From contig JAHHIA010000009.1 in the NCBI GenBank assembly GCA_019359045.1, positions 62,001 through 126,000 of the forward strand: 64,000 nt of DNA, given 5' to 3'. The DNA comes from Scytolyngbya sp. HA4215-MV1. Its GTDB lineage: Bacteria; Cyanobacteriota; Cyanobacteriia; Leptolyngbyales; Leptolyngbyaceae. The position numbers and the translations under genes were made by a program. Shown here in pieces: positions 26,320 to 45,292 of the stretch. Within the stretch, counting starts at the first letter, position 1. Each line of letters starts with the position of its first letter. Below the pieces are notes generated by a model. It had not been told where the DNA came from and did no database searches. It saw only the letters and a program-made list of their open reading frames with translations.

Positions 26320-28377
26320 CTACAGAGTGCTTTGCCAAAGCTTGATTGTGCCGTCTTTACTAGCGCTGACGATCGTCTCTCCTGGAGCATTGATTGCAAC
26401 TGCATGTACTGAATCCGTATGTCCAATGAGCTTGCTCAGTTCCTTCCCAGTTTTGACCTGCCAGAGTTTGACGGTATGGTCCATACTACCACTGACCAAC
26501 CACTCGCCATCAGGACTGAATGTCAGCGCAGTGACCGCCCAGGAGTGTCCTTGAATCTGGTGTCGCAATTCCCCGGTTGCCACATCCCAGAGGCGAATCG
26601 TGCGATCGTCCCCTCCACTTGCTAGCAAAGTTCCATCTGGGCTAAAGGCAACTGCTAGCACCGACCAGGTATGACCGGATAGAACATAACCTAGCGAAGG
26701 ATGCCCTGCTGCAGTGAGCTGGGTTAGATCCCACAAACGAACGGTACGATCGAAACTGGCGCTAGCGAGAAACCGTCCATCTGGACTGAAAGTCACAGCT
26801 GTAACCTGTAATCCATGTCCGTTCAGGATGCAGCATACTTGAGCACTCTCCACATCCCAAAGTCGAATGGTTTTGTCCCAACTGCCACTTGCCAGAAGGT
26901 GTCCCGCAGGATGAAAAGCAACTGATCGCACCGTATGAGTATGTCCACACAATTGACTGATCGGGGCTTGGGTCTGTATGTTCCAGAGTCGAATGGTTTT
27001 GTCGTCGCTACCACTTGCCAGGAGATCTCCGGCTGGATGGAGCGCCATCGATCGCACTGCCTGAGAATGTCCGCTCAGGGTGTAGCGATGGGTTCTGGTC
27101 AGCAAATCCCAGACTTGTAGCGTTGTGTCCTCTCTGCCACTGACCAAAATTTCTCCCGTCGTAGAGGGAGATTTGCTACCCATTGCGATCGCATAAATGC
27201 TGGCAATACGATTGCCAGTCAGGCTAGCAACACATTGCCAAAGCTGGCGTGGATGAACCGGGGCTTCGGTTGCCTTTTCAGAAAAGTGAGCATCCCAGTT
27301 GAGAATTGAGATGGCTTGTATCACTGCATCGGCAGATTGAAAACGACGACTCAGCGCACTTTCAATCAACTGATCCAGAATCTCAGCCAGAGCATTACTC
27401 ACTGTTGCATTGCCAATTTTTGCCTGTCGCTCAGTCAGCAACTTGCGCCAGATCCAGCAGTGATTGACCCCATCGAATAAATCAAACGGAGAAAGCTGGG
27501 TCAACAAATGAATGCAGGTCACCCCCAGACTGTACAAATCGCTGGCAAACACTGCCTTGCCTCGAAGTTGTTCTGGGGCAACATATTCGGCGCTGCCAAT
27601 GCTGGTGCCAGGTTTCACGAGATCGATCGCTTGCACCCGTTTTGCGGCTCCAAAATCGACCAATACCAAACTCCCCGGTTCCATTGGGAGATCAGGAGTG
27701 GGAAGTTGCAAATCAGCAGGGACGCTTGAACGCAGCAACTCGTTCTGGTGTTGTGAGGATGATGCCGATCGGCGAATAATATTGGCAGGTTTGATGTCTC
27801 GATGGATCACCTGATGGTCATGCATAAACTTCAGTACGGGGAGCAAATCCGTTAACACCTGCCAGATCTGCGTTTCGCTGAAAGCTCCCTGCTCTGCCAA
27901 CTCAGTTGCCAAACTGGTGCCTGCGATCCATTCCTGTACCAGGTAAAGAATTTGATTTTCTTCAAAAAATGCTAGTAAGCAAGGGATCTGGGGATGGTTG
28001 CCCAATTCTGCCAGTTGTTGCGCTTCCTGCTGAAAGCGTTGAGTTGATCGTGCTAGCACATCAGGGATCTGGTTGTGCGGCAAGAGCTGCTTGATCACGC
28101 AAAGACGATCGGGAAGGGAGGAGGAGGAGGCGATCGAAGCAGCTTGAAATTTGGGATGCAAGCTCTCTTCACTGCTTAATTCCTGGCTCTTGGCTCCTGG
28201 CTCCTGACTCCCTCCTTCATCGATCGCCAAAAACGTCCGACCAAATCCCCCCTGCCCAATCAATCGCATGGGGCGGTAACGGTTTTGCAAGCGCAAGAAA
28301 GAACCGCAAGCCTGACAGCAGTCTACTACATCAGGATTTTGCGGTTCTTGACAGTTTGGGTTTAGACAATAGGACAT
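26320..28377 (-). CDS. Ser/Thr protein kinase with zinc ribbon and seven WD40 repeats
   Basis: The 685-residue protein starts with a short zinc-ribbon-like segment (Cys 4, 9, 21 and 24). A Hanks-type kinase domain follows: glycine loop GQGGFGRTF near 41, catalytic loop HRDIKPANI near 195, then DFGAAKR and the APE-like YVAPEQLRG. From about residue 390 seven WD40 units run to the end, most with GH...WD or GH...WQ, predicting one full beta-propeller. This kinase-WD40 design is well known in cyanobacteria. No transmembrane helix was seen. The propeller presumably recruits partners; substrates are unknown. Confidence 0.93.
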   Translation of the reverse strand: MSYCLNPNCQEPQNPDVVDCCQACGSFLRLQNRYRPMRLIGQGGFGRTFLAIDEGGSQEPGAKSQELSSEESLHPKFQAASIASSSSLPDRLCVIKQLLPHNQIPDVLARSTQRFQQEAQQLAELGNHPQIPCLLAFFEENQILYLVQEWIAGTSLATELAEQGAFSETQIWQVLTDLLPVLKFMHDHQVIHRDIKPANIIRRSASSSQHQNELLRSSVPADLQLPTPDLPMEPGSLVLVDFGAAKRVQAIDLVKPGTSIGSAEYVAPEQLRGKAVFASDLYSLGVTCIHLLTQLSPFDLFDGVNHCWIWRKLLTERQAKIGNATVSNALAEILDQLIESALSRRFQSADAVIQAISILNWDAHFSEKATEAPVHPRQLWQCVASLTGNRIASIYAIAMGSKSPSTTGEILVSGREDTTLQVWDLLTRTHRYTLSGHSQAVRSMALHPAGDLLASGSDDKTIRLWNIQTQAPISQLCGHTHTVRSVAFHPAGHLLASGSWDKTIRLWDVESAQVCCILNGHGLQVTAVTFSPDGRFLASASFDRTVRLWDLTQLTAAGHPSLGYVLSGHTWSVLAVAFSPDGTLLASGGDDRTIRLWDVATGELRHQIQGHSWAVTALTFSPDGEWLVSGSMDHTVKLWQVKTGKELSKLIGHTDSVHAVAINAPGETIVSASKDGTIKLWQSTL

Positions 28378-30858: not shown

Positions 30859-33800
30859 TTAGTTCACTGCAAAAGTCAGTACAGTTTCATCCACACCCTT
30901 GAGTTTGAGCGGGCTAAATTTAGTAATTTCTTCCTCTCCCAGGTAATCGGCAACAGCAGCCGAAACCAGAATGGCATCAGGTTCGGCGGCTTCTTGGATA
31001 CGGGAAGCAATGTTGACGCTAGGTCCGATCGCGGTATAGTCTGCCCGTTCAGCCGCCCCAAACATGCCAACGACTGCTGTGCCCTGATGGATACCACACC
31101 GGAACTGCACCTGACTAATCCCCTGTTCTTGCCAACGCTGATTGAGTTTGTGGAGCGAATGACGCATCTGGCGGGCAGCGGCAATGGCGCGACGAACCTG
31201 CTCATTGGGAGTTAACTCCTCCGGCGCACCAAACAGCGCCAGAATGGCATCTCCCATAAATTTGTCTACGGTGCCACCATTCTCAAACACCACATGGGTC
31301 ATTTCTGCTAGATATTCGTTCAGCAACTCCGCGACCCGCCGCGATCGCAACGTATTAGAAAGCTGTGTAAAGCCAATGATGTCGCTGAACAGTACCGTAA
31401 TCAGACGTGGTTCCGGACGCAGGTCTAACATCAGTTCCCCCTGGGCTGCTCGTGCGACTAACGAGGGGGGTAGAAATCGCCGTAGCACTGATTCAGTCAG
31501 GTAGGTGTTGAGTTCTGCCACTCGTCGCTCATTTTCTTTTAGCGCAAGCAAATTGCGGACTTCCGCCAGGACTTCGCGATCGCTAAAGGGTTTCGACAAA
31601 TACGCATCGGCTCCTTGCTCAATGCCTTCAAGTCGCGTATCTTCATCTACTTTGGCAGTCAGAAGGATGATAGGCGTCCCTTTCAGAGCTTCATCCTCAC
31701 GAATCATCCGGATCATATCTAGCCCGGAGACCATTGGCATCATCAAATCTGCCACGATCAGATGAGGCTGACGGGACTGGGCGATCTGAAAGCCTTCAGC
31801 ACCATTTCGAGCGACAAAGACCTGATAGTCATGCTCCCTCAAAATGCTCGACAGATAAGCTCGCAAGTCGGGATTATCATCCACAATCAAAATTCGAGAG
31901 CGCTTTTGGTCAGCCGCATCAACCGCATCATCATCCTTGGCAACTTGGGTAAAATCTTGCTGGAACTCAATTTCTACATCTGCCAGCTCTATCGCCGCTC
32001 GACCCGGTTGAACCTCTGCCTGCACCTCAATCACTTGGTCGGTGGGCAAATGAGCAATGCCTGTCTGTAGCCAAACCGTAAACGTTGTCCCCTCCCCATA
32101 AATAGACTCTACCGAAACTTGCCCCCGGTGCAGTTCTACCAACTCTTTGACCAATGCGAGTCCCAACCCACTGCCTTCATAGCTGCGATTGGTCGAGCCT
32201 TCTGCCTGACGAAATCGCTCAAACAGGTGAGGAATCTGATCAGGACGAATACCGATACCAGTATCCACAACTCTCAATAAACAGTGATCTCCAGCCGGTT
32301 GCAGACTAACTGTGATGCTACCTCCCTCGGAAGTGAACTTCATCGCATTTGACAGTAGGTTGTAAAGCACCTTGTCAAATTTTTCGAGATCGAGATAAAT
32401 CTGAGGACAGGGAACGAGTTGAGTCAGCAGACGAATATTTTTTTTGTCACAATAAGGACGAAAGGATTCCACGGTCTGTCTGACAAATCCCACCAGATCG
32501 CAAGGGCGAAAACTCGGTTGCATGCGTCCCGCATCCAATCGTTGCAGATCTAACAGTTGGTTGACGAGGCGAAGCAACCGACGAGAATTGCGCAGACAAA
32601 TAGTGGCTTGCTCATAAGTCAATCCTTGCTTTTGTGCCGCTGCAGATTCGAGTGGACCGATCATCAAGGTCAAAGGGGTCCGAAATTCGTGCGAAATATT
32701 TTGGAAAAACTCGGTTTTTTGCCGATCGAGTGCCAGCAGTTGTTCCGCCTGTTGTCGAGTTTTCTGATAGAGACGAGCTTGTTGCACCGCGATCGCAGCT
32801 TGAGCTGCCACAGCCTGCGCCAATTCAATTTCCTCAGTTTGCCACTGACGCGACTGATTGTTTTGCCGTAGAGAAATACTGCCAATAATGTCGCCGTCAG
32901 AAATCAGAGGCACCACCAGTAGCGCTCTAGCAGGTAACCGAAAAGGTAGATCGGTTAGGTTCATTTCCGGATGTTGTCGGAGATCGTGCAACACAACCGG
33001 CTGATGGGTAAGGAGTAATTGTTTCAGGACTGGGTTGCCATCGATCGGCACCATCGACTGTGGCAACTGACGCGGTGACTGCTCACTGTCCTGAAACGGC
33101 AATGTATAAGCAAACTGAGTTTGATTGAGCGCATCATGTAACCCGACACATTGCACAAATTCATCTTGCTCAGTCCATAACGACAACGCGCAACCATCTG
33201 CATGTAACGCCTGTCCTAATTTTTGGGTAATGGCAGCAAAAATTTCTTGCGGGTCAAGACTAGAACGAATTGCAGTTGTAATGGTATTGATCAGCACTTC
33301 CCGCTTCGCCAATGCGCGAACCTGTTCATAGGCTCTTGCCTGGGACAGTGCCAGTGCTGCCTGATCGGCGACCATCACCACCAGTTGCACTTCATCATCA
33401 TTCCAGTAGCGGGGTTCTCCACATTGGTGGAGTGCGAGTACTGCTGTCAACTCTTGCTGACAGATCAAGGGCACCAATAGACTTGATCGAATATCGGCCT
33501 CCTGGTACGCCTGCCGCCGCACTCCACCTTCATCAACATCGGACTGGAATCGATCGTCAGTTTCCACATCATGAATGACCTGAACATGATAAATTTCCCA
33601 AATTGTTTGAGCCAGGGCAGCGGTATTGGGAATGGGCTGCAAGTGATGCGGTTTATCGATTTCAGGCGGTTGATAGAGTTTGGGGTCTGGTACGAGGGGT
33701 GCATCCAATAAGCTCCATGCATCATCTAGGGGATGAGGGGTCCCCATATAGATAAAGCAGTCCTCTTCCATGCGGTCATTTTGAAAAGGACGTAGAATGC

Positions 33801-34341
33801 CGCAACTGACCTCAAACATACTGCCGATCGTCTCGACGATCGTCTGAAGAATCTGTTGGGAGGTCATCGCACTACGGATGGTGTTGGTCACTGCATTGAG
33901 TAGCGATTCTTGCCGCAGCGATCGACGCAATTCTTGCGTCCTTGCCCGTAGGACGTTGTGAGTATCCACTGCCTGTCGAACCACAGCTTTTAGCTCTTCG
34001 TCATCCCAGGGCTTGGTGACATACTTAAAAACTTTGCCAGAGTTAATCGCTTCTACCAGATCTTCAACATCGGTATACCCAGTCAAAATAATCCGAATAA
34101 TGTCGGGATACTGCGTCGCTGTCAAACTCAAAAACTCTGTTCCACTCATCATCGGCATACGCTGATCCGAGATGATGACAGCAATATCACCCTCTTTTGC
34201 CAGAATTTCTAGCGCAGTTGGGGCATTTTCTGCCCTTAGAACTTTAAATTCTCGATGAAAGGTGCGATAAAGCAAGTCCAAATTATCTGGCTCGTCATCG
34301 ACCACCAGCAGTTTTGGCTTTTTAATCCCTTGAGACTTCAT
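30859..34341 (-). CDS. Hybrid histidine kinase fused to adenylate/guanylate cyclase
   Basis: The likely start is ATG 34341 (MKSQGIKKPK); the frame begins at 34389. Domain order: receiver 1 (phospho-Asp in VIISDQRMP), two GAF domains, HisKA (His in ISHEFRTPLTL), HATPase with the N and G boxes (NLLSNAMKF, DTGIGI, GSGLGLAL), and receiver 2 (VADLMMPMVSG). A class III cyclase domain is C-terminal (LFSDIIGFTQL, VDKFMGDAILALFG, DYTAIGPSVNIASR). Both metal aspartates are present, so cyclic nucleotide synthesis is plausible. No transmembrane helix: a cytosolic phosphorelay-controlled cyclase. It resembles CyaC-type cyanobacterial adenylate cyclases. Divergent from the NRPS gene across 1.4 kb. Confidence 0.93.
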   Translation of the reverse strand: MKSQGIKKPKLLVVDDEPDNLDLLYRTFHREFKVLRAENAPTALEILAKEGDIAVIISDQRMPMMSGTEFLSLTATQYPDIIRIILTGYTDVEDLVEAINSGKVFKYVTKPWDDEELKAVVRQAVDTHNVLRARTQELRRSLRQESLLNAVTNTIRSAMTSQQILQTIVETIGSMFEVSCGILRPFQNDRMEEDCFIYMGTPHPLDDAWSLLDAPLVPDPKLYQPPEIDKPHHLQPIPNTAALAQTIWEIYHVQVIHDVETDDRFQSDVDEGGVRRQAYQEADIRSSLLVPLICQQELTAVLALHQCGEPRYWNDDEVQLVVMVADQAALALSQARAYEQVRALAKREVLINTITTAIRSSLDPQEIFAAITQKLGQALHADGCALSLWTEQDEFVQCVGLHDALNQTQFAYTLPFQDSEQSPRQLPQSMVPIDGNPVLKQLLLTHQPVVLHDLRQHPEMNLTDLPFRLPARALLVVPLISDGDIIGSISLRQNNQSRQWQTEEIELAQAVAAQAAIAVQQARLYQKTRQQAEQLLALDRQKTEFFQNISHEFRTPLTLMIGPLESAAAQKQGLTYEQATICLRNSRRLLRLVNQLLDLQRLDAGRMQPSFRPCDLVGFVRQTVESFRPYCDKKNIRLLTQLVPCPQIYLDLEKFDKVLYNLLSNAMKFTSEGGSITVSLQPAGDHCLLRVVDTGIGIRPDQIPHLFERFRQAEGSTNRSYEGSGLGLALVKELVELHRGQVSVESIYGEGTTFTVWLQTGIAHLPTDQVIEVQAEVQPGRAAIELADVEIEFQQDFTQVAKDDDAVDAADQKRSRILIVDDNPDLRAYLSSILREHDYQVFVARNGAEGFQIAQSRQPHLIVADLMMPMVSGLDMIRMIREDEALKGTPIILLTAKVDEDTRLEGIEQGADAYLSKPFSDREVLAEVRNLLALKENERRVAELNTYLTESVLRRFLPPSLVARAAQGELMLDLRPEPRLITVLFSDIIGFTQLSNTLRSRRVAELLNEYLAEMTHVVFENGGTVDKFMGDAILALFGAPEELTPNEQVRRAIAAARQMRHSLHKLNQRWQEQGISQVQFRCGIHQGTAVVGMFGAAERADYTAIGPSVNIASRIQEAAEPDAILVSAAVADYLGEEEITKFSPLKLKGVDETVLTFAVN

Positions 34342-35749
34342 GCACCAAGCCCCCACAACAAAAGCAGTTGTAACTGTTGAATCCGGCACACGGGTCTCAA
34401 GATCCGCACGATCGGTGGCTTGTCTTGCATCGAACCACGTTTCTGCCCTATCTCCAAGTGCGCAATGACTGCCATTGGCTTAATTTGATGGTGCCAGGTT
34501 AGGGAGTTTGACTGGGTTGCACCCATGAATTTTTGGGTACTCTCGCAAGAGAAATGTCTGAAAAAAAGCTCGAAAAAGAAATTTTGTCCTTCGCCGAATG
34601 AGCCGGAAGGACGCTTTGACTGAAGCTGCTTTTCAATAAATTTTTCAGGCAAATCACTGTTGAAGACGACAAGACGCATGTGCAAGCAAACAAGAAGCTC
34701 TTTGCTAGCCTTTAATAAAGTTTCCCCAAAAAAGTCTGGTGGTAACTTTTGCGGGGGAACCCTGATCATAAAAATCCCCAATTCATTAATAGACTGCGGC
34801 TTGAGCTCAGTTCAGAAAATCGCTTCCAGCGAAAATTAGCCCAATAGCCCCTGAGCGAATCGCTCGGCTATCACTCAGCAAAGACAATTGAGAGCTCCTG
34901 CAAACCTTCCGAGTACTCAGGAATTTTCGATTACGCTTTCAAAACTTTATCCACAGAGGATGCACTCCTTCGTCTATCCTAAATTCTTTCCGAAAATTTC
35001 TTGCGAGCAACGTCACTTCCAGTGTCCCTACCTGAATATAAATGCCTGAACTGAAACGATAGATGCTGTCAGGACTCATGCTGTTTCGTTGTACGTTTGA
35101 TTTTTGCTTGAATAGGCACCTCCTTAGAAATTATGGTTGAAATTGACTGATCTTGCCATTCCATCGCTGAAATGGTTGGCTACCCCGCTACGATACACAA
35201 CGCGATGGGAACAGCACAGCGATTAGTACAGAAGCAATTAGAAGAATAGCATTGTCGGATAGTCGGATAGTTGGAAAGGGACTCTTCTCTTTACCTAGAG
35301 AGAATGAGTATCCAAGATTACAGTCCGGTCGGTCAAGTTTTCACATGAAAAAAGATTTAGGTGATAACCGGGATCACTCATTTTTTGCCAATGAGTCACT
35401 CGTTTATTCTGGCGAAATCACTGGTGTTTTGAGGGCAGATTGATACGTTTGAAGAAGGGAAATTGACGCTTTGAATCTCTGAGATGTCGATGAGTGATAG
35501 AAAAAATCATCGTATTAAAAGTTACCTGGTATATTTCTTGCTTAACTTTTAAAGTTTGTCTGCCCAATCGGTAAAACGCGTTTTACGAGCTTATACCCTC
35601 ACCCCTTGCAAAAACTGGCTTTCTAGCAGTCAAGATATTCTTTGATCGCTGCCAACAAATTTCAATCCTTAGGGTTTATTTTCTGGCATTTAGTCCCGCA
35701 CTAGAGTGTAGCCTACCCTCTACTCATCTCTCCAGCTGAAGGAAAAATC
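34342..35749. other. 1.4-kb intergenic region upstream of the NRPS operon
   Basis: No credible gene. A 147-codon minus-strand frame (34338-34781) covers the leader of the hybrid cyclase, and a 63-codon plus frame lies at 35252-35443; neither has family features or a good start. Structures seen: ACTCATT/AATGAGT arms (35376-35396), AACTTT-T-AAAGTT (35544-35556) and a 16-base palindrome (35571-35586). The length is unusual here and suggests long leaders and promoters for the two divergent signalling units. Confidence 0.5.
35571..35586. promoter_or_regulatory. 16-bp perfect palindrome upstream of the NRPS gene
   Basis: GTAAAACGCGTTTTAC is a perfect 16-base palindrome about 165 bases before the NRPS start. 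A smaller palindrome (35544-35556) lies just upstream. Such symmetry without a T-run is more like a dimeric regulator site than a terminator. The regulator is not identified. Confidence 0.45.
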
Positions 35750-38700
35750 ATGCTAAGTGATATCAGTGAGTTTTCTATACATCGATTGATAGAAATCCAA
35801 GTTAGCCAAACACCTGATGCGATCGCAGTGATGGCTGAAGGAAAATCACTCACGTACCGGGCACTGAACCAACGAGCAAATCAGTTAGCCCATTACTTAA
35901 AAACTCTAGGAGTGATGCCAGAAGTTCTGGTGGGGATATGCCTGGAGCGATCGCTGGAAATGGTGATTACGTTATTGGCAATCTTGAAAGCAGGGGGGGC
36001 CTATGTGCCACTCGATCCCAGCTACCCCAGAGAGCGCCTGGCATTTATGATGGCGGATGCACAAATTTCGGTGCTCATCACTCAGGCTTCGCTCCTCACA
36101 GTGCTGCCTCCACATCAGGCAAAGGTGGTCGGCTGGGAGGAAGCCAGTTCCCAAATTGCTCAACAGTCTGAAATTGATTGTTCCAGTGGAGTGCGCCCCG
36201 AGCATCTGGCATACGTGATCTACACATCTGGCTCCACAGGCAAACCCAAGGGCGTAGCGATCGAGCATCGCAATACCGTTGCTTTTATTGACTGGGCAAG
36301 GAAATTCTTTAGTCGCGAGCAATTGGCGGGCGTACTTGCCTCTACCTCGATTTGTTTTGACCTTTCTGTGTTTGAGTTGTTTGTCACGTTCAGCGTGGGA
36401 GGAACCGTCATTCTGGCTGAGAATGCATTGCAACTGCCTAGATTATCAGCAGCTAACCAGGTGACGCTGATTAATACGGTGCCGTCGGCGATCGCGGAAC
36501 TCCTTCGCATGGACGGCATTCCCGATTCAGTCCATACCATTAACCTGGCGGGAGAACCGTTGCAAAACTTGCTCGTACAGCAGCTTTACCAGAAAGAATC
36601 GATTCAGCAAGTGTTTAACTTGTATGGACCGTCGGAAGACACGACCTATTCCACTGTGGCATTGGTGCCGAAGGGAGCAGACACACCGCCCGCGATCGGA
36701 TATGCGATCTCCAATACTCAGATTTATCTGCTAGATGAACAACACCAGCCAGTTGCAGCCGATCAGCCAGGCGAGATTTATATCGGTGGGGCAGGCTTAG
36801 CGCGTGGATATCTGCATCGTCCGGAATTGACGGCTGAGCGCTTTATTGCCAATCCTTTTAGCGATCAACCGGGCAGTCGGCTCTACAAAACGGGCGACCT
36901 GGCAACTTTTTTGCCCGATGGTCGGTTGAAATACCTGGGACGATTGGATCATCAGGTCAAAATTCGCGGATTTCGGGTGGAACTGGGTGAGATCGAAGCC
37001 GTGTTATACCAGCATCCTTGGGTACAGCAAGCGATCGTAGTCGATCGTGAGGTGCGTCCTGGTGATAAGCGTCTAGTCGCCTATATCGTGGCTGAACAAC
37101 AGGGGCAAAATGCGACGGATAGCGATTGGCAAAGGCGTTTGGCAATGCAGGGCGTTCGCCAGCAAGTGCATCAGACTCTGATCAAAACCCTGCGTCAGTC
37201 CCTGAAACAGCAACTGCCTGACTTCATGGTGCCTTCTCACTTCGTTTTGCTAGAGACCTTGCCTCTGACGCTGAATGGCAAGGTCGATCGTCAGGCGTTG
37301 CCTGCGCCCGATTGGAACCCTTACGAGCTAGATCGTCCTTTTATTGCACCGAGCACGCCGATCGAAAAACAATTGGCAGGGGTCTGGCAGCAACTGTTGG
37401 GGGTGTGCCACATTGGCTTGCACGACAACTTCTTTGAATTGGGCGGACACTCGCTGCTAGCAGTGGAGTTGGTGGAACAGGTGGAAGTGGAATTTCAAGT
37501 GGAAGTGCCGCTGGTCTGTTTTCTGGAAATGCCCACTCTGGCTGGGCTGGCAGCCACGATCGCGGCACACCTCGCAACGACAGCTCAGAGTGTGACCGTT
37601 ACTCATTCCCCGCTAAAAAATCTCAGTTCCGATACAGTTTTAGACCCTACCATCCAACCTGAAAAAAGTCCTCATTTGCCGATCGTCCAACCGCAAAACA
37701 TTTTTTTAACCGGCGCAACTGGCTTTCTCGGTGCCTTTCTTTTGGATGAACTGTTGCAACAGACCACTGCGAAGATTTATTGCCTGGTGCGATCGACCCA
37801 CGAAGCTGCTGGGAAACAACGCATTCAAGCAAATTTGGTAGCTTATTCCCTCTGGCGAGAGTGCTACAGCGATCGGATCATTCCCATCTTAGGTGATTTG
37901 TCTGAGCCATTACTGGGCATTGCCGCAGAGCGATTTCTTCATCTAGCGCAAGAGATTGATGTGATTTATCACAATGGTGCGCTAGTCAACTTTCTATATC
38001 CTTACTCAGCGCTCCGAACTGCCAACGTTTTGGGTACTCAAGAAGTCCTGCGGTTGGCAAGCCACACGCGACGAAAGCCGGTACACTTTACTTCGACGGT
38101 GGATGTGTTTGCGTCTTTGGATGTGCCGCAATCTCAACAGTTTAACGAAACCGATCGGGTGGAATTGGGTGAGCAGTTGATGAGTGGGTATGCTCAAAGC
38201 AAGTGGGTGGCGGAAAAACTGGTGATGGCAGCGGCTGCGAAGGGCTTGCCCGTCAGCATTTATCGACCCAGCTATATTACAGGACATAGCCAAAGGGGTG
38301 TATGGAATACGCAAGACTTAGTGTGCCGATTGCTGAAAGGATGCATTCAGATGGCAAGTGCACCTGACCTGGAGATCAGTCTGAATCTGGTTCCGATCGA
38401 CTATGTCAGTCAAAGTCTGGTTTACCTTTCTCAACAACCAGCGGCGATCGGTCAAGCTTTTCATCTGGTCAATCCCAAGCCCTTATCCTGGCAACAACTG
38501 ACTCGCTTCATCAACGCGCTTGGTTACCCTGTGAGGCAGGTGCCGTATGACCAGTGGCATGACTGTCTGCTCAAAGTAGCCGCCGATCCTCAACATCCCC
38601 TGCATCCCCTGCTGACTTGTTTTGCCAGCCAATCTGCAACTGAGAGCGAAATTGGTACTCATCAGTTTGGCTGCGAGCAAACTGTGCATCAGTTGAATGC

Positions 38701-38803
38701 TGCCATTCCCTGTCCTGAAATCACCCTGAGCTTAATGAAAACGTATCTTCAGTACTTCATCCAGAGTGGTTTCTTAAAGGTTCAGTCTCTAACAGTATGC
38801 TAG
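35750..38803 (+). CDS. Single-module NRPS: adenylation, carrier and thioester-reductase domains
   Basis: The 1017-residue enzyme has three domains. Adenylation (1-520) carries YTSGSTGKPKG (158-168), NLYGPSEDT (290-298), YKTGD and NGKVDR with the catalytic Lys511. The carrier (about 535-605) has Ser568 in FFELGGHSLL for phosphopantetheine. The reductase (about 645-1010) has TGATGFLG (654-661) for NADPH and Thr783/Tyr814/Lys818 as the SDR triad. My hand-read pocket code is D-L-F-N-N-A-L-T-Y-K, which I recall as an alanine code. There is no condensation domain, so the predicted reaction is amino acid to amino aldehyde, possibly to an amino alcohol or pyrazine. First gene of an operon with a kinase, cyclase and regulator. 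Confidence 0.92.
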   Translation: MLSDISEFSIHRLIEIQVSQTPDAIAVMAEGKSLTYRALNQRANQLAHYLKTLGVMPEVLVGICLERSLEMVITLLAILKAGGAYVPLDPSYPRERLAFMMADAQISVLITQASLLTVLPPHQAKVVGWEEASSQIAQQSEIDCSSGVRPEHLAYVIYTSGSTGKPKGVAIEHRNTVAFIDWARKFFSREQLAGVLASTSICFDLSVFELFVTFSVGGTVILAENALQLPRLSAANQVTLINTVPSAIAELLRMDGIPDSVHTINLAGEPLQNLLVQQLYQKESIQQVFNLYGPSEDTTYSTVALVPKGADTPPAIGYAISNTQIYLLDEQHQPVAADQPGEIYIGGAGLARGYLHRPELTAERFIANPFSDQPGSRLYKTGDLATFLPDGRLKYLGRLDHQVKIRGFRVELGEIEAVLYQHPWVQQAIVVDREVRPGDKRLVAYIVAEQQGQNATDSDWQRRLAMQGVRQQVHQTLIKTLRQSLKQQLPDFMVPSHFVLLETLPLTLNGKVDRQALPAPDWNPYELDRPFIAPSTPIEKQLAGVWQQLLGVCHIGLHDNFFELGGHSLLAVELVEQVEVEFQVEVPLVCFLEMPTLAGLAATIAAHLATTAQSVTVTHSPLKNLSSDTVLDPTIQPEKSPHLPIVQPQNIFLTGATGFLGAFLLDELLQQTTAKIYCLVRSTHEAAGKQRIQANLVAYSLWRECYSDRIIPILGDLSEPLLGIAAERFLHLAQEIDVIYHNGALVNFLYPYSALRTANVLGTQEVLRLASHTRRKPVHFTSTVDVFASLDVPQSQQFNETDRVELGEQLMSGYAQSKWVAEKLVMAAAAKGLPVSIYRPSYITGHSQRGVWNTQDLVCRLLKGCIQMASAPDLEISLNLVPIDYVSQSLVYLSQQPAAIGQAFHLVNPKPLSWQQLTRFINALGYPVRQVPYDQWHDCLLKVAADPQHPLHPLLTCFASQSATESEIGTHQFGCEQTVHQLNAAIPCPEITLSLMKTYLQYFIQSGFLKVQSLTVC

Positions 38804-38836
38804 TCGGTAGTGGTCAATGGGAAAGGAATCGAATTT

Positions 38837-41800
38837 ATGCCTCAACCCAAAGCATCTTTGACGCGCCGTACATTGCTCACTCTGGCATCCAGCATTGGGG
38901 TCGTGATCGTTGCGACCACCGCGATCGGCTACTTGTGTTTGGTGTCAAGCTATACCAACAAGACCCTGGAGAAAGTCAAAAAGTATGTAATTTTGCGAAC
39001 TGAGCGCGAACGAGAAATCTTTTCCCTGGCAATGGATGATCATGTCATTTTCAAACAGGCAATTCTTGATCGCTTTAAAACAGTCGGAAATTTTGACGCG
39101 CAAGCAGAGTTCGATCGTCGTGTGGTGCGGTTTCCCGATGGCACGATGCGCAATCGTCTAGAAGGATTTGACTATCGCAAAACCCCCGGCGTTTTTCTGG
39201 GGAAAAATGTCACGATCAATACAGATATCCAACGACGAGTTGTAACCTATTTTGACCTAATTAGTGCCTATGGACCTGCCTGGAGTAATCGATTTGTAAA
39301 CACTTATCTCCAAATTCCAGAAAATGGCATTGTGATTTATTTCCCCACCCAACCCTGGGCACAACAGGCGCCCTCAGTGCCATCTTTTAGAGTGACCGAT
39401 GATGAGTCTTTCTACATTACCGATAAGGCGCACAATCCAGAACGTAAAACGGTTTGGACGGGAATTTATTATGACCAGGTAGCCCATGCCTGGATGGCAT
39501 CTTGTGTTACGCCTATCGATCTCAATGGTCGTCATATTGCCACGTTTGGACATGACATTTTAATTGGACAGTTGCGCGATCGCGCTTTTCGAGATCACCC
39601 GATCGCAGGCACTTATAACATTGTTTTTCGTCGAGATGGTCGCCTGATTGTTCATCCAGAGTTAATGGATCAAATTCAGCAAGGAGCTGGCAAATTTGAT
39701 ATTGAACAATCCAATAATATACATCTTAAGAAGATTTTTGCCCTAGTCAAAAACAATCCACCCCAAAATGTCATTATTGACAATCCTCACCAGGATGAGT
39801 ACCTGGCAGTGCAAAATCTGGGTGAACCCGATTGGTTTTTCATCACAGTGGTTCCCAAATCGATTCTGGCTCAACAAGCATTGGAAGCCGCTCGGTTTAT
39901 TCTGCTATTAGGAATTGCCTCTCTGCTGATCGAAATTGCGATCGTCGCCTGGATTTTACGCAGACAAATTGCTCAACCCTTGACCGATTTTATGCAGGCA
40001 ACCGAAAGCATCGCTTCAGGTGATCTCAACATTGAACTCGACACCACTCGGCAAGATGAACTCGGTCGTCTGGCAATGTTATTTCATTCTATGGCGCGTC
40101 AGGTAGAAGCACGGGAGAAAAACCTGAAACAAGCAGAGGCAGAGGCAAAGCGGCTTCAGTTAATGGAGGCAGAAACCCGCCGTCGAGTGGAAGTTCTGAA
40201 TCAAACCTTGGAAAGTACTGTCAACGAGCGGACTGCCTACCTCAACGCCATTATTGACAACCTGGCAGATGGTTTACTGGTCGTCGATAGTAACTGTTAC
40301 ATTGCTCGCTGTAACCCAGCTTTGCTAGGAATTTTTGGCTTCTCTGCGGACGATTTGCAAGGGCAATCTTGCCAGACTCGGTTTAGTGATGAAGTGATTC
40401 AACTAATTGAGCGAAGCCACCAAAAGCCCACAGAAAATTTTGTGGCAGAAATGACTTTGAGTGATGGTCGAATTGTCAAAGCAGTGGCAACCGCAATTCT
40501 CAAAAACTTAAAAGATGAAGATGGCTCAGATTCATTCAATACGGCTGATCGATATATTGGTTCAGTCGTGCTGATTCGGGATATTACCGATGATAAAGCC
40601 ATGGATCAAATGAAAACCGATTTTATTTCAACAGTTTCTCATGAGTTACGAACACCGCTGACTTCGGTCTTAGGATTCGCCAAAATAATTAAGAAAAAAT
40701 TGGAAGAAGCCCTTTTCCCATTAATCCAAACAGAGGACAAGAAAGTCCAGCGAAATGTCCGACAAGTTCAAGAAAATATTGACATTATTATTTCGGAAGG
40801 AGAGCGTCTCACAGCACTCATTAACGATGTCCTGGATATTGCCAAGATGGAGGCTGGCAAAGTTGAGTGGAAAATGGAACCTCTATCAATCAAAGAAGTG
40901 GTTGAACGAGCGATTACAGCCACCACAGCACTGTTTCAGGACAAGGGTTTGGAGCTGATGACGAACATAGGCGCGGATTTGCCCATGGTGATGGGCGATC
41001 GCGATCGCTTGATTCAAGTTGTCATTAATCTCATCTCAAACGCAGTAAAATTCACTGATTCTGGGTCGGTTACTTGTGAAGTCATCGAAAGCGATGGAGA
41101 GATTCTAGTAAGCGTCATTGACACGGGAAGTGGGATTTCTTTACCGGATCAAGAAAAGGTCTTTGAAAAATTTAAACAGGTAGGAGATACCCTCACCGAT
41201 AAACCTAAAGGTACGGGCTTGGGACTGCCGATTTGTAAGCAAATTGTTGAATGTCATCAGGGCAGAATTTGGGTGAAAAGTGAGCCTGGAAAAGGCAGCA
41301 ATTTCTCTTTTGCGCTTCCTGTGAGTGCGGCGATCGCAACCAGCCCCAAAACCTTTGAAATTGAAAAATTATTACAACGATTAAAAGAGCATGTGGTAAC
41401 TTCGGCACCCGAAACTGAGCGAAAAAAGACAGTTTTAGTCGTCGATGATGATGTCCATATTCGTCAATTATTACGGCAACATTTGGAAGCAGATGGCTAT
41501 CAGATCGAAGAGGCAAGAGATGGACGAGAGGCGATCGCCCAGGTGAAGCAAGCCCGTCCCGATTTAATTGTTCTGGATGTCATGATGCCTGAGATTGGCG
41601 GATTTGATGTGGCTGCCATCCTCAAAAATGATCCCGATACGATGAATATTCCCATCGTGCTGTTATCGGTGGTAGAGGATAAGGAGCGGGGGTATCGGAT
41701 TGGGGTCGATCGCTATCTCACTAAGCCGATCGATACCGATTTATTGCTTAAAGAAATTGGCATTCTCATTCACCAGGGTCCCCTTAAACGCAAAGCGTTA

Positions 41801-42058
41801 GTCGTGGATGAAAATGAAACCACGGTTAGAACGCTGGTGCAGTTTTTGCAAACCAAGGAATTTAACGTGGTAGGAGCCTTGAATGATCAAGACTTTCTTG
41901 AAAAGGTTGCCTCGATCAAACCAGATGTGATCATTGCCAACCTGGGTTTCTGGAAACAATTTACGGAAGCAAAAGCCCTCAGATTTGAAAAAGATCTAGA
42001 AAATGTGCTGTTTTTCTTACTGGCAGATAATACCGAAGATGGCTCCAATCAACCTTAG
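38837..42058 (+). CDS. Membrane hybrid histidine kinase (Cache-like, HAMP, PAS, HisKA, receiver)
   Basis: ATG 38837 is chosen over GTG 38810 because AAAGGA lies nine bases before it. The N-terminal helix (about 15-38) and a second helix (FILLLGIASLLIEIAIVAWIL) flank an extracytoplasmic sensor of about 270 residues of Cache type. HAMP, a PAS domain, HisKA (His in TVSHELRTPLTSV), HATPase (GTGLGLPI) and a receiver (Asp in IVLDVMMPEIGG) follow. The last 90 residues resemble a second receiver with Asn at the phospho-Asp position (VIIANLGF). It starts 33 bases after the NRPS gene and overlaps the cyclase gene by 20 bases. Confidence 0.92.
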   Translation: MPQPKASLTRRTLLTLASSIGVVIVATTAIGYLCLVSSYTNKTLEKVKKYVILRTEREREIFSLAMDDHVIFKQAILDRFKTVGNFDAQAEFDRRVVRFPDGTMRNRLEGFDYRKTPGVFLGKNVTINTDIQRRVVTYFDLISAYGPAWSNRFVNTYLQIPENGIVIYFPTQPWAQQAPSVPSFRVTDDESFYITDKAHNPERKTVWTGIYYDQVAHAWMASCVTPIDLNGRHIATFGHDILIGQLRDRAFRDHPIAGTYNIVFRRDGRLIVHPELMDQIQQGAGKFDIEQSNNIHLKKIFALVKNNPPQNVIIDNPHQDEYLAVQNLGEPDWFFITVVPKSILAQQALEAARFILLLGIASLLIEIAIVAWILRRQIAQPLTDFMQATESIASGDLNIELDTTRQDELGRLAMLFHSMARQVEAREKNLKQAEAEAKRLQLMEAETRRRVEVLNQTLESTVNERTAYLNAIIDNLADGLLVVDSNCYIARCNPALLGIFGFSADDLQGQSCQTRFSDEVIQLIERSHQKPTENFVAEMTLSDGRIVKAVATAILKNLKDEDGSDSFNTADRYIGSVVLIRDITDDKAMDQMKTDFISTVSHELRTPLTSVLGFAKIIKKKLEEALFPLIQTEDKKVQRNVRQVQENIDIIISEGERLTALINDVLDIAKMEAGKVEWKMEPLSIKEVVERAITATTALFQDKGLELMTNIGADLPMVMGDRDRLIQVVINLISNAVKFTDSGSVTCEVIESDGEILVSVIDTGSGISLPDQEKVFEKFKQVGDTLTDKPKGTGLGLPICKQIVECHQGRIWVKSEPGKGSNFSFALPVSAAIATSPKTFEIEKLLQRLKEHVVTSAPETERKKTVLVVDDDVHIRQLLRQHLEADGYQIEEARDGREAIAQVKQARPDLIVLDVMMPEIGGFDVAAILKNDPDTMNIPIVLLSVVEDKERGYRIGVDRYLTKPIDTDLLLKEIGILIHQGPLKRKALVVDENETTVRTLVQFLQTKEFNVVGALNDQDFLEKVASIKPDVIIANLGFWKQFTEAKALRFEKDLENVLFFLLADNTEDGSNQP

Positions 42059-43451
42059 GCGACTGCTCCAGAGAAAGGATGTTTCTTCTGCTATTCAACA
42101 ACTCTTGAAGGTAGCTGAATATCCGCTCAGTATACGAGATCTTCAAAATGAAGTGATGTTTGGTGTCGATCGCCTCGACTTGCTCTATAAACACCCGATT
42201 GAGGTGAATGGGGAAAGCGTGGGTTGGGTGATGGGAATTCAGGGAGCGGAGGCGATCGCAACCTTGGTTTCTCACCTGATCACGCAAGAGCTAGAAAAGC
42301 GGTTGTTGGCGCAAGAAACGCTCGATCGCTATAAAGAAATCACGCTGCTTTATAACCTGTCTGAAAGAATGGGGGCGAAGTTAGACTTACCCGCAGTTGC
42401 AGATTTACTATTGGATGAAGCCCATAAATTCATTCAAGGTTCTTCAGGTGCTATGGTTTTGCTCAATCCTGCAACTGGGGTATATGAGTCCATTGCGACT
42501 TTTGGAGAAACTGAGATTGTACCCTTACAAATCCAAGCGGGAGTTGGCGTAATCGGGAGTATTCTTTTGAGCGGAATCGGCGAAATCATCAATGATATTG
42601 CCGCCGATTCTCGTTGCATCGCACAAGAAGCTTGCTTCAGTTCCCTGATTTGTGCCCCCTTGAAAAGTCAAGAGGAAGTCCTAGGACTGATTTATATTGC
42701 CAGTCAATCAGCCATTAACTACACTGCTGCTGATTTGAAATTATTTAATGCCCTAGCATCTCAAGCATCGTATGCGATCGAGAATGCATTACTGCATAAA
42801 AATAAACTCAAAGAAGAACGGATTAAAAGCAATTTAGAACGCTATGTTCCCTCTCAAGTGGTTCAGGCAATTTTGGATTCTCAAGGAGATGTTTCTTTAG
42901 CCCCCACCCGTAAAGACATCACCATTTTATTTTCGGATATTCGTAACTTTACAACCCAGTGTGAAGAATTGTCGCCGGAAGAAATTGTGCGCTATCTCAA
43001 TGAATATTTCACCCAGATGGTAGAAGTAATTTTTAGTCATCAGGGAACGGTCAATAAGTTTGTTGGAGACATGATCGTGGCGCTATTTGGTGCTCCCTCG
43101 CCGTTAGTTGATAGCGAAAAACGGGCAATTGAAACGGCGATCGAGATGCAAAAACGCCTTCGTACTCTGCCAACTCAATGGATTCGTGATAATTTCAACA
43201 CAGGGATTGGCATTAGTTCGGGCAGAGTCGTGGTGGGCAACATTGGCTCTCCCAGGCATATGGACTATACCGCGATTGGAGATGAAGTCAATACGGCTTC
43301 TCGTTTGCAGTCGATCGCGAAAGGAGGGCAGATTCTCATTACCCGCTCCATTTATGAAAAGACGAAAGCTGATTTTCAATTTCAATCCTGTGGCTCAATT
43401 AAAGTAAAGGGAAAAAAGTACGAAGTTGAAGTTTTTGAAGTTGTTTACTGA
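42039..43451 (+). CDS. GAF-domain class III adenylate/guanylate cyclase
   Basis: ATG 42039 (MAPINLRRLL) is likelier than 42003, and overlaps the kinase gene by 20 bases. The first 80 residues are unassigned; the start of the kinase gene's final region may be functionally linked. A GAF domain follows (about 100-260), then a class III cyclase catalytic domain with ILFSDIRNFT, VNKFVGDMIVALFG and DYTAIGDEVNTASRL. Both metal Asp residues, the base-selecting Lys and the transition-state Asn/Arg are present, so it should be active, more likely on ATP. No membrane helix. The eight-base gap to the response regulator implies coupled translation. Confidence 0.92.
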   Translation: MAPINLRRLLQRKDVSSAIQQLLKVAEYPLSIRDLQNEVMFGVDRLDLLYKHPIEVNGESVGWVMGIQGAEAIATLVSHLITQELEKRLLAQETLDRYKEITLLYNLSERMGAKLDLPAVADLLLDEAHKFIQGSSGAMVLLNPATGVYESIATFGETEIVPLQIQAGVGVIGSILLSGIGEIINDIAADSRCIAQEACFSSLICAPLKSQEEVLGLIYIASQSAINYTAADLKLFNALASQASYAIENALLHKNKLKEERIKSNLERYVPSQVVQAILDSQGDVSLAPTRKDITILFSDIRNFTTQCEELSPEEIVRYLNEYFTQMVEVIFSHQGTVNKFVGDMIVALFGAPSPLVDSEKRAIETAIEMQKRLRTLPTQWIRDNFNTGIGISSGRVVVGNIGSPRHMDYTAIGDEVNTASRLQSIAKGGQILITRSIYEKTKADFQFQSCGSIKVKGKKYEVEVFEVVY

Positions 43452-43459
43452 GCCTAAAT

Positions 43460-43840
43460 ATGACGCAAAAAATATTAATTGTGGATGATGAACCACATAT
43501 TCGTCGTTTGATGGAACAAACTTTGGAACCTCTGGAAGATGAAGGGGCAGAAATCCTAGTTGCCACGAATGGTAAAGAGGCGCTAGAACTCATTCAAAAA
43601 GAAACTCCCGAACTAGTTTTTTTAGATGTGATGATGCCACAAATGAATGGATTTGATGTGTGTAATCTGGTCAAACATGAATTGAAAATAGAAGGAATTT
43701 ATATCATTTTATTGACTGCGAAAGGACAAGAGTTTGATAAAACCCGTGGCAAGGAAGTCGGGGCTGATATGTATATGACCAAACCCTTCGACCCGGATGA
43801 AATCGTTGAAAAATCGATGGAGATTTTGGGACTGGCATAG
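43460..43840 (+). CDS. Single-domain (CheY-like) response regulator
   Basis: The 126-residue protein is one receiver domain with no output region. It has the acidic pair in IVDDEPHIRR, the phospho-acceptor Asp in LVFLDVMMPQMNG, Thr in LLTAKGQ and Lys in MTKPFDPDE, all as required for phosphorylation. It lies eight bases after the cyclase gene and probably receives phosphate from the operon's hybrid kinase or relays it. Its output partner is not visible. Confidence 0.95.
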   Translation: MTQKILIVDDEPHIRRLMEQTLEPLEDEGAEILVATNGKEALELIQKETPELVFLDVMMPQMNGFDVCNLVKHELKIEGIYIILLTAKGQEFDKTRGKEVGADMYMTKPFDPDEIVEKSMEILGLA

Positions 43841-43957: not shown

Positions 43958-43987
43958 TTCTGATTGCATATAGGATTTTCAATTCAG

Positions 43988-45292
43988 ATGAGCCAGATAA
44001 AAACCTGGAAACGGTTGGGACTGTTTGCCTTATTGGGGTTGCTGTTGAGCTGGATTGTGAGTTGCAGCGGCGGACTTTCTCCCTCAGGCAAAGGACAACA
44101 GACAGCAGGCAAGCCAGAGCTTGAGTTCTGGACGATGCAACTGGCTCCTCAGTTTAATGACTACTTTAAGGACTTAATTGCTCGGTTTGAACAAGAAAAT
44201 CCGGGGATCAAAGTCCGCTGGGTGGATGTGCCCTGGACTGCGATGGAAAGCAAGATCCTGACTGCAGTTTCAGCGAAAACTGCCCCTGATGTGGTGAATC
44301 TAAATCCCGACTTTGCCTCTCAGTTGGCAGCCCGCAATGCCTGGCTCAATCTGGACAATAAAGTTGCTCCAGACGTTCGACAACAATATTTCGCCAATAT
44401 TTGGAAAGCCAGCGTACTGGATGGGAAAAGTTTTGGCATTCCCTGGTACTTGACCACACGAGTGACGATTTATAACCAGAACTTATTGAAGCAGGCAGGA
44501 ATTAGTAAGCCACCTACGACCTATGCGGAATTAGCTGAAGCTTCTAAGCAAATCAAAACGAAGACTGGGAAGTACGGCTTTTTTGCCACGGTTGTACCAG
44601 AAGACTCAGGAGAAGTTTTAGAGTCTTTTGTACAAATGGGTGTCCAGTTGCTAGATGCTCAAGGAAAGGCGGCATTTAATACGCCTCAAGGCAAAGCAGC
44701 GTTCCAGTATTGGGTTGATCTATATAAAAATGGTCTGTTGCCTCAGGAAGTTTTGACGGAGGGGCATCGCCATGCGATCGACCTCTATCAGCAGGGAGAG
44801 ACCGCAGTCCTGGCATCGGGAGCCGAATTTTTGAATACCATTGCCAAAAATGCTCCAACGATCGCCAAAGCTTCTGCGTCAGCCCCCCAAATTACGGGCG
44901 CAACAGGCAAGAAAAATGTTGCTGTCATGAATCTGGTGATCCCGAAAGACACCGATCAACCAGAGATGGCATTAAAATTTGCCCTCTTTGTCACCAATAA
45001 CGAAAATCAGCTTACTTTTGCCAAAGCTGCGAATGTTCTCCCCTCAACAACAAAGGCACTTGAAGACGGCTACTTCAAAACTGTACCCGCCAACGCCACG
45101 CCAGTAGACCAAGCACGCATTGTTAGTGCCCATCAACTCAAGCAAGCAGAAGTGCTGATTCCTGCTTCTAAGGGAATTAAGCAGTTACAGAAGATTGTTT
45201 ATGACAATTTGCAGGCTGCGATGCTAGGGCAAAAGACTGTGGATCAGGCAATTCAGGATGCTGCCCAAGCGTGGGATAGCCAAGCAGGGTAA
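43988..45292 (+). CDS. ABC transporter extracellular solute-binding lipoprotein, family 1
   Basis: From ATG 43988 the protein has 434 residues and a lipoprotein signal peptide: a basic start, hydrophobic core LGLFALLGLLLSWI and lipobox IVSC. The mature part reads as a family 1 sugar-binding protein (LEFWTMQLAPQFNDY, FEQENPGIKVRWVDVPW, AAFQYWVDLYKNGLLP). A TTG at 43964 could extend the N-terminus by eight residues. Usual permease and ATPase genes are absent here, so partners lie elsewhere or it is only a sensor. It follows the response regulator by 147 bases and has its own terminator. Confidence 0.9.
   Translation: MSQIKTWKRLGLFALLGLLLSWIVSCSGGLSPSGKGQQTAGKPELEFWTMQLAPQFNDYFKDLIARFEQENPGIKVRWVDVPWTAMESKILTAVSAKTAPDVVNLNPDFASQLAARNAWLNLDNKVAPDVRQQYFANIWKASVLDGKSFGIPWYLTTRVTIYNQNLLKQAGISKPPTTYAELAEASKQIKTKTGKYGFFATVVPEDSGEVLESFVQMGVQLLDAQGKAAFNTPQGKAAFQYWVDLYKNGLLPQEVLTEGHRHAIDLYQQGETAVLASGAEFLNTIAKNAPTIAKASASAPQITGATGKKNVAVMNLVIPKDTDQPEMALKFALFVTNNENQLTFAKAANVLPSTTKALEDGYFKTVPANATPVDQARIVSAHQLKQAEVLIPASKGIKQLQKIVYDNLQAAMLGQKTVDQAIQDAAQAWDSQAG

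Follow-up and report, generated by a model that had tools for sequence, protein, structure and literature searches.

Scytolyngbya sp. HA4215-MV1, a cyanobacterium, carries a nonribosomal peptide synthetase (NRPS)-like gene followed directly by a sensor kinase gene, the first two in a row of four plus-strand genes. We analyzed this row within a window of 64,000 nucleotides, the whole stretch of DNA studied here (assembly GCA_019359045.1, contig JAHHIA010000009.1, positions 62,001 to 126,000 of the forward strand); coordinates are those of the window. The first gene (35750..38803) encodes a 1017-amino-acid (aa) enzyme with adenylation, thiolation and reductase (A-T-R) domains, recognized by Pfam and NCBIfam models. 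The second (38837..42058) encodes a hybrid sensor kinase made up of a transmembrane (TM) segment, a periplasmic dCache domain, a second TM segment, HAMP, PAS, HisKA, HATPase and receiver (REC) domains, and a degenerate REC-like end. A GAF-class III adenylate cyclase gene (42039..43451; Pfam GAF and Guanylate_cyc) and a stand-alone receiver gene (43460..43840; Pfam Response_reg, phosphoacceptor Asp56) complete the row. A preliminary description of this DNA had named four plus-strand open reading frames (ORFs) of these families, and both their positions and their Pfam domains agree with our analysis. The spacing it gave for the three junctions, +33, -20 and +8 bases, is reproduced with its own start codons (ATG 38837 for the kinase, ATG 42039 for the cyclase); in-frame alternatives lie at GTG 38810 and ATG 42003, respectively. 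Promoter-like matches (7 versus a shuffle mean of 12.9) and terminator-like matches (8 versus 8.9) at the locus do not rise above shuffled sequence, and are thus mute on a single transcript either way.

The first two genes are conserved as a pair. We searched 388 genomes of the class for the sensor and the NRPS and then read the gene neighborhoods. Together with the further searches below, this gave 21 distinct cyanobacterial loci, window included, in which an A-T-R gene lies upstream of a kinase with a window-type sensor, on the same strand and within 1.3 kb; the window itself has this arrangement, with a sensor at least 52% identical to the family. One further, more distant linked locus (L074) has a sensor of 38% identity. 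The sensor search of the 388 genomes returned 39 places, of which 32 were examined, and 10 of those examined have an NRPS upstream. A search of named genomes returned 18 loci, 15 of them preceded by a same-strand A-T-R gene, in genomes that include Nostoc calcicola, Desmonostoc, Gloeocapsopsis, Geitlerinema, Kamptonema, Spirulina, Pantanalinema and Geminocystis; the named loci lacking the gene are L116, L118 and L119. Across 217 Nostocaceae genomes, a reductase domain lies upstream of eight of eight sensors at least 56% identical (six of the eight repeat loci from the other searches) and of none of three sensors at 48–49%. Every sensor of at least 52% identity whose neighborhood was read is linked to an A-T-R gene, and linkage also occurs at lower identity (L066, 49%; L067, L069 and L117, 38–39%). 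The adjacency recurs across cyanobacteria and is more than chance. Titles and abstract beginnings in the open-access literature yielded no description of an A-T-R/kinase pairing, which is weak evidence of novelty.

The pair varies in its details. Gaps in these loci rest on mechanical ORF starts, by which the two genes overlap in L067, L069, L106 and L107; overlap argues for one transcript there. An opposite-strand ORF separates NRPS and kinase in L042 (also found as L113) and L066, with a gap of 1.1–1.2 kb in L042 and L066, and L087 has a 199-aa gene in between. We counted L065, with its NRPS in two frames, as linked, and L067, with its kinase in two frames, by its sensor half; these are otherwise intact pairs, and the split frames suggest decay or sequencing error. 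At L148 and L149 only the reductase part is visible upstream. L104, L105, L108, L111 and L113 repeat L062, L064, L063, L065 and L042, and were removed before trees were built. Among 18 linked kinases with readable flanks, window excluded, the next gene is a receiver or receiver-kinase in 14 and a cyclase in none. The window differs from this common layout in having the GAF-cyclase directly after the kinase, and the receiver only then.

Pairing with a kinase is a property of stand-alone A-T-R genes more than of NRPSs that end in a reductase domain. The NRPS search, which favors the window enzyme's own kin because that enzyme was the query, gave 51 places at E 1e-230, with at most two candidates scored per genome, and all 51 neighborhoods were read. 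A same-strand kinase follows within 1.3 kb in 16 of 20 stand-alone genes (frame below 1200 aa), versus 2 of 31 (L125 and L137) longer R-terminated NRPSs (Fisher p 8e-8, uncorrected for shared descent). Both limits, 1.3 kb and 1200 aa, were chosen after the loci had been seen, and nearby opposite-strand kinase ORFs at two of the long-NRPS loci (L043 and L132) were not counted. The synteny check that the preliminary description had proposed is therefore borne out for the NRPS–kinase pair in the named genomes, in the closer Nostocaceae sensors and among stand-alone A-T-R genes.

The rest of the row behaves differently. Order across all four genes, which the preliminary description had proposed looking for in other cyanobacteria, occurs in the window only (1 of 388 class genomes at the thresholds used). 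Its proposal that NRPS and external-sensor kinase belong together is supported by the 21 loci, while the cyclase falls outside the conserved system. The cyclase carries a GAF domain (about 42381–42782) and a catalytic domain (about 42909–43421; both Pfam, plus strand) with the motifs FSDIRNF, NKFVGD and DYTAIGDEVNTASRLQ. The protein has the two metal-binding Asp, the Lys/Thr purine pair and the Asn/Arg pair expected of a class III adenylate cyclase, and activity is predicted. At 1e-100 the cyclase is found in 33 of the 388 genomes, and only in the window (1 of 33) does it lie beside an NRPS or a window-type sensor found by the NRPS and sensor searches. The same GAF-cyclase and lone receiver occur in cassettes at L044, L051, L054 and L055, where the histidine kinase (HK) domains are 71–74%, the cyclase catalytic domains 66–74% and the lone receivers 69–78% identical to those of the window. 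The kinases of these four cassettes carry different sensors and do not follow an NRPS. Over a wider set (L044, L045, L051, L053, L054, L055, L059 and L060), lone receivers are 63–78% identical to that of the window.

The kinase itself joins the two backgrounds. Its PAS-HisKA-HATPase-REC core (40241..41758, plus strand) is of the cyclase-cassette type, since the HisKA-HATPase part is 67–74% identical to PAS-HK-REC-REC cassette kinases (L044, L045, L051–L055) versus 32–37% to NRPS-linked kinases. The sensor, in contrast, shares 52–61% identity with the closer linked kinases but has no match at 1e-8 in the cassette kinases L044, L045 and L051–L055. Among 15 kinases of other genomes that align over the core, the alignment begins at residues 449–457 of the window kinase in nine, 355–357 in four and 468–476 in two, and we infer a switch to another kinase backbone near or just after HAMP. 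By these comparisons the window is a hybrid, with a sensor of the NRPS-linked type and the kinase core, cyclase and receiver of another cassette; the cyclase is, on the same grounds, a local variation outside the conserved unit. The output side was replaced, yet NRPS and sensor remained paired; we take this as the strongest indication that the NRPS is part of the input side. We consider a functional link between enzyme and kinase very probable, in whichever direction it runs.

The enzyme has the domains and catalytic residues of a single-module NRPS-like protein. Its A, T and R domains span about residues 15–517, 541–604 and 653–1010 (AMP-binding, PP-binding and NAD_binding_4 in Pfam). The A10 Lys511, carrier Ser568 and R-domain Thr783/Tyr814/Lys818, which we take to be the catalytic set, are present, and this set is kept in 25 of 26 aligned relatives, the exception being L065, truncated by a frame break. 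Neither a match to the condensation domain (PF00668) nor a second copy of the enzyme at 1e-100 (the sole match is the enzyme itself) occurs in the 6.6 Mb genome, which has one match to the phosphopantetheinyl transferase family. A role as one piece of a peptide assembly line is thereby ruled out, and the kept catalytic residues point to a stand-alone enzyme that activates and reduces an amino acid. Membership in three characterized families was also rejected by NCBIfam scores: L-aminoadipate reductase Lys2 (alpha_am_amid, 523 versus a cut-off of 1030), carboxylic acid reductase (carboxyl_red, 243 versus 1300) and MxcG (662 versus 2300).

The substrate is probably a single small amino acid. The nine-position pocket code of the A domain reads DLFNNALTY, and all nine residues agree with the McyA A domain of PDB 8jbr, which we take to be an alanine module. 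A literature look-up of the code found no match; the alanine-type assignment comes from McyA and the alignment to 8jbr. McyA belongs to a peptide assembly line and an unrelated pathway context. From the chemistry of such A-T-R enzymes, an amino aldehyde is the expected first product (PMC10512218, PMC5878181). It could then be reduced to an alcohol or dimerize.

The periplasmic sensor (38951..39871, plus strand) is common to NRPS-linked kinases of other cyanobacteria, as judged from alignments, an AlphaFold model, fold matches and a tree, and is followed by a Pfam HAMP domain (39956..40108, plus strand). Its Pfam match to dCache_1 (E 2.5e-4) is under the family cut-off. The AlphaFold model (predicted local distance difference test score 85.7) places a tandem Cache fold between two TM helices and matches PctD with choline (Z 19.4), Mlp24 with glycine (Z 19.2) and PctA with isoleucine (Z 19.1), at root-mean-square deviations of 3.3–3.9 over 233–264 residues. 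The external sensor that the preliminary description had called Cache-like thus matches dCache receptors at Z about 19–20, and the modeled fold matches include amino-acid and amine receptors, among others. Identity is only 13–14% to PctA and Mlp24 and 9% to PctD, and those dCache_1 proteins are chemoreceptors whereas the window protein is a kinase. At its C-terminus we read from the translation a degenerate receiver-like stretch, uncalled by Pfam, with IIANLG at the phosphoacceptor place.

Residues in the predicted pocket may bear on the ligand. In a sequence alignment Tyr211, Asp213 and Asp240 fall on PctA Tyr144, Asp146 and Asp173; together with Glu190 they are invariant in all 19 aligned sensor sequences. 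In PctA, R126 binds the ligand carboxylate (PMC10104139). At this position the window appears to have Glu190, by a two-step alignment from the window to L125 and from L125 to PscC and Mlp37. As a hint only, Glu at the place of the carboxylate Arg would suit an amine that lacks a carboxylate, such as an amino aldehyde or amino alcohol. One relative of the sensor lies outside the cyanobacteria, in Methylotenera (L119, 33% identical, no A-T-R NRPS); the ORF upstream of that sensor gene matches the A domain weakly, at 22%.

Substrate codes and sensor classes go together in part. A domains beside the window dCache class read DLFNNALTY or DLFDNALT[FY], or else the glycine-type DILQLGMIW, DILQLGVIW or DLVQIGMTW; DILQLGMIWK is given for glycine domains in one paper (PMC12283262). 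All linked sensors at least 52% identical whose code was read pair with a DLFNNALTY-type or glycine-type code. Two other dCache classes have clearly different codes. The second dCache class (L083, L085 and L089) pairs with DVQF[IY]A[QH]VV, of which DVQFIAHVV is presumably a proline code. A multi-TM sensor class (L048, L084, L086 and L137; 66–76% identical) pairs with D[IL][LP]Q[LI]GMVW. Its hybrid kinases lie beside A-T-R genes (L048:10580-13768, L084:2219-5329, L086:3842-6955 and the L137 kinase), and the sensor part has 10–12 hydrophobic segments by crude hydropathy and looks amino acid permease-like by eye; Pfam assigned no family to this membrane part in the two kinases scanned (L048 and L084).

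In the sensor tree, six glycine-linked sensors form a single clade (support 100/99), and the linked and unlinked states require 4 changes on the sensor tree versus 15 when shuffled. The window A domain is basal in a 15-member clade (98/91) of which 14 members, the window and L068 included, come from loci with a window-type sensor. In L107 the reductase groups with alanine-linked enzymes, but both the A domain and the sensor fall in the glycine set, a split that fits A domain–sensor coupling. Sixteen positions separate the six glycine-linked from 13 alanine-linked sensors (L068, L148 and L149 were left out of this screen), and 8 of the 16 lie within residues 139–196, in the distal module.

The enzyme–sensor pair recurs in many cyanobacteria, so a single system may both make and sense a chemical signal. 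We propose that the A-T-R enzyme would activate one small amino acid, probably alanine here and glycine in sister loci, load it on the carrier and release it by reduction as a reactive amino aldehyde, which may go on to an amino alcohol or dimerize to a pyrazine. The product or a close derivative would reach the periplasm and bind the dCache domain of the kinase encoded just downstream. This kinase would, in most relatives, then act through a receiver or receiver-kinase relay. In the window, NRPS and sensor have been joined, apparently near or just after HAMP, to a PAS-HK-REC core that in other genomes operates with a GAF-adenylate cyclase and a lone receiver, so the output here is likely a change in cyclic AMP (cAMP). 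We give this complete chain, from an amino aldehyde-derived signal through the partner kinase to cAMP, an even chance.

Two bacterial systems lend the proposal its closest precedents, each with an A-T-R enzyme on which a quorum signal depends. As in the Pvf and Ham types, the window enzyme is a stand-alone A-T-R protein with intact catalytic residues and without a condensation domain. AurF-family N-oxygenases (PF11583), to which we take the Pseudomonas protein PvfB to belong, have no match in the window genome, by a search of modest sensitivity (1 of 14 control genomes matched, under the cut-off). PvfC is a stand-alone A-T-R NRPS that makes flavacol via a proposed amino aldehyde, its autoinducer cluster includes PvfB as a diiron N-oxygenase, and identifying the receptor is left to future studies (PMC10194917, PMC10512218). 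In the window, by contrast, a receptor-like kinase is the next gene. HamD of Burkholderia cenocepacia is likewise a stand-alone A-T-R enzyme, and its product valdiazen is reported to be a quorum-sensing signal; a figure legend lists five putative tailoring enzymes in the cluster, and the text of that paper does not use the word "receptor" (PMC5878181). Only the AurF kind of tailoring enzyme was looked for in the window genome, with no match, and HamD comes from a different group of organisms.

Several observations weigh against a signal that is both made and sensed by the pair. The set of four genes has a single occurrence. At L047, L068 (its kinase is 10 kb off) and L088 the stand-alone A-T-R gene has no kinase next to it; L082 lies at a contig end. 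The uracil receptor 9hvj equals PctA in its match to the sensor fold (Z 19.3), and it is the best PDB sequence match of a trimmed sensor profile (E 6.5e-5, versus 1.2e-3 for PctA), which we used in place of the whole sensor because the latter was swamped by HAMP matches. Glu190, Tyr211, Asp213 and Asp240 are also present in L116, L118 and L119, which have no NRPS beside them, and vary in the wider sensor set. On the tree the window sensor branches with unlinked sensors (95/98). The match between codes and sensors is imperfect as well: a distant sensor of the window dCache class (L074) pairs with DAEDIGTVV, the codes of the multi-TM class are only 1–4 positions away from the glycine code, and L087 and L125 share one further sensor class but differ in code. 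L086 does not fit coupling, as its A and R domains fall in the glycine clade yet its sensor is multi-TM, with a code of the multi-TM type. Shared descent could account for part of the code–sensor match, and the positions that separate glycine- from alanine-linked sensors could likewise be inherited by descent.

Some of these observations suit an alternative in which the cue comes from outside: the kinase would respond to an amino acid, an amine or some other nutrient signal and regulate the NRPS, and the NRPS product would be an effector (such as a defense, metal-handling or redox metabolite) and not the ligand. Sensor and output would then be kept together through co-regulation. Sensor relatives without an NRPS (L046, L070, L071 and L116) are consistent with this, as is a fold shared with general receptors for amino acids, amines and uracil. 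The cyclase-type cassettes also lean this way, since the genes upstream of all five (L044, L045, L051, L054 and L055) are of nutrient type where recognized: a solute-binding protein in L054, Mem_trans proteins under the cut-off in L051 and L055, and one over the cut-off in L045, which has no cyclase gene downstream; that of L044 was unrecognized. The idea of a solute-binding protein as the constant upstream partner of the cassette was rejected on this showing. Two findings tell against an outside cue: the kinase in the window has swapped its output part but kept its sensor beside the NRPS, a history that ties the NRPS to the input, and sensor clades partly match A-domain codes. We regard this main alternative as less likely than not.

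It is improbable that the product is an ordinary metabolite (such as alaninol, ethanolamine or a component of a siderophore) formed by Lys2- or carboxylic acid reductase-like reduction, with the kinase a loosely tied neighbor: models of Lys2, carboxylic acid reductase and MxcG match parts of the enzyme but score far under their curated cut-offs, and kinase adjacency in 16 of 20 loci is hard to reconcile with loose ties. Less probable still is a dedicated aldehyde-to-cAMP pathway selected as a four-gene unit, for although all four genes are tightly spaced and the cyclase and receiver keep their catalytic motifs, the set occurs in a single class genome, and cyclase and receiver elsewhere follow kinases with other sensors. 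The four genes may still act as one unit here, as a recent or rare combination.

Other genes flank the row. A second class III cyclase is encoded on the minus strand (30859-34389), as a 1176-aa GAF-HisKA-HATPase-receiver-cyclase protein divergent from the NRPS and about 1.4 kb from its start. About 120 bases after the lone receiver, an extracellular solute-binding protein gene (SBP_bac_1; 43964-45292, plus strand) is followed by more plus-strand ORFs and may belong to a separate transporter operon. Further off, a minus-strand gene (26320-28377) encodes WD40 repeats fused to a protein kinase domain.

To our knowledge, few cyanobacterial cell–cell signals have been described. A signal made and sensed by the NRPS–kinase pair would, in a wider reading that we offer tentatively and at somewhat less than even confidence, make the window one member of a cyanobacterial signaling family, in which every stand-alone A-T-R enzyme derives a signal from a single amino acid, the next gene encodes its receptor, and code and sensor tend to change together. 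Alanine and glycine would go with the first dCache type, DVQF-type codes with the second dCache, and the glycine-like D-LQ-GMVW with the permease-like multi-helix sensor; one pair would have been plugged into a cAMP output as a natural receptor graft. A candidate receptor adjoins the A-T-R enzyme in many genomes, and the natural variants allow both prediction and swapping experiments. The graft of the sensor onto a cyclase cassette may itself provide a cAMP read-out for finding the ligand.

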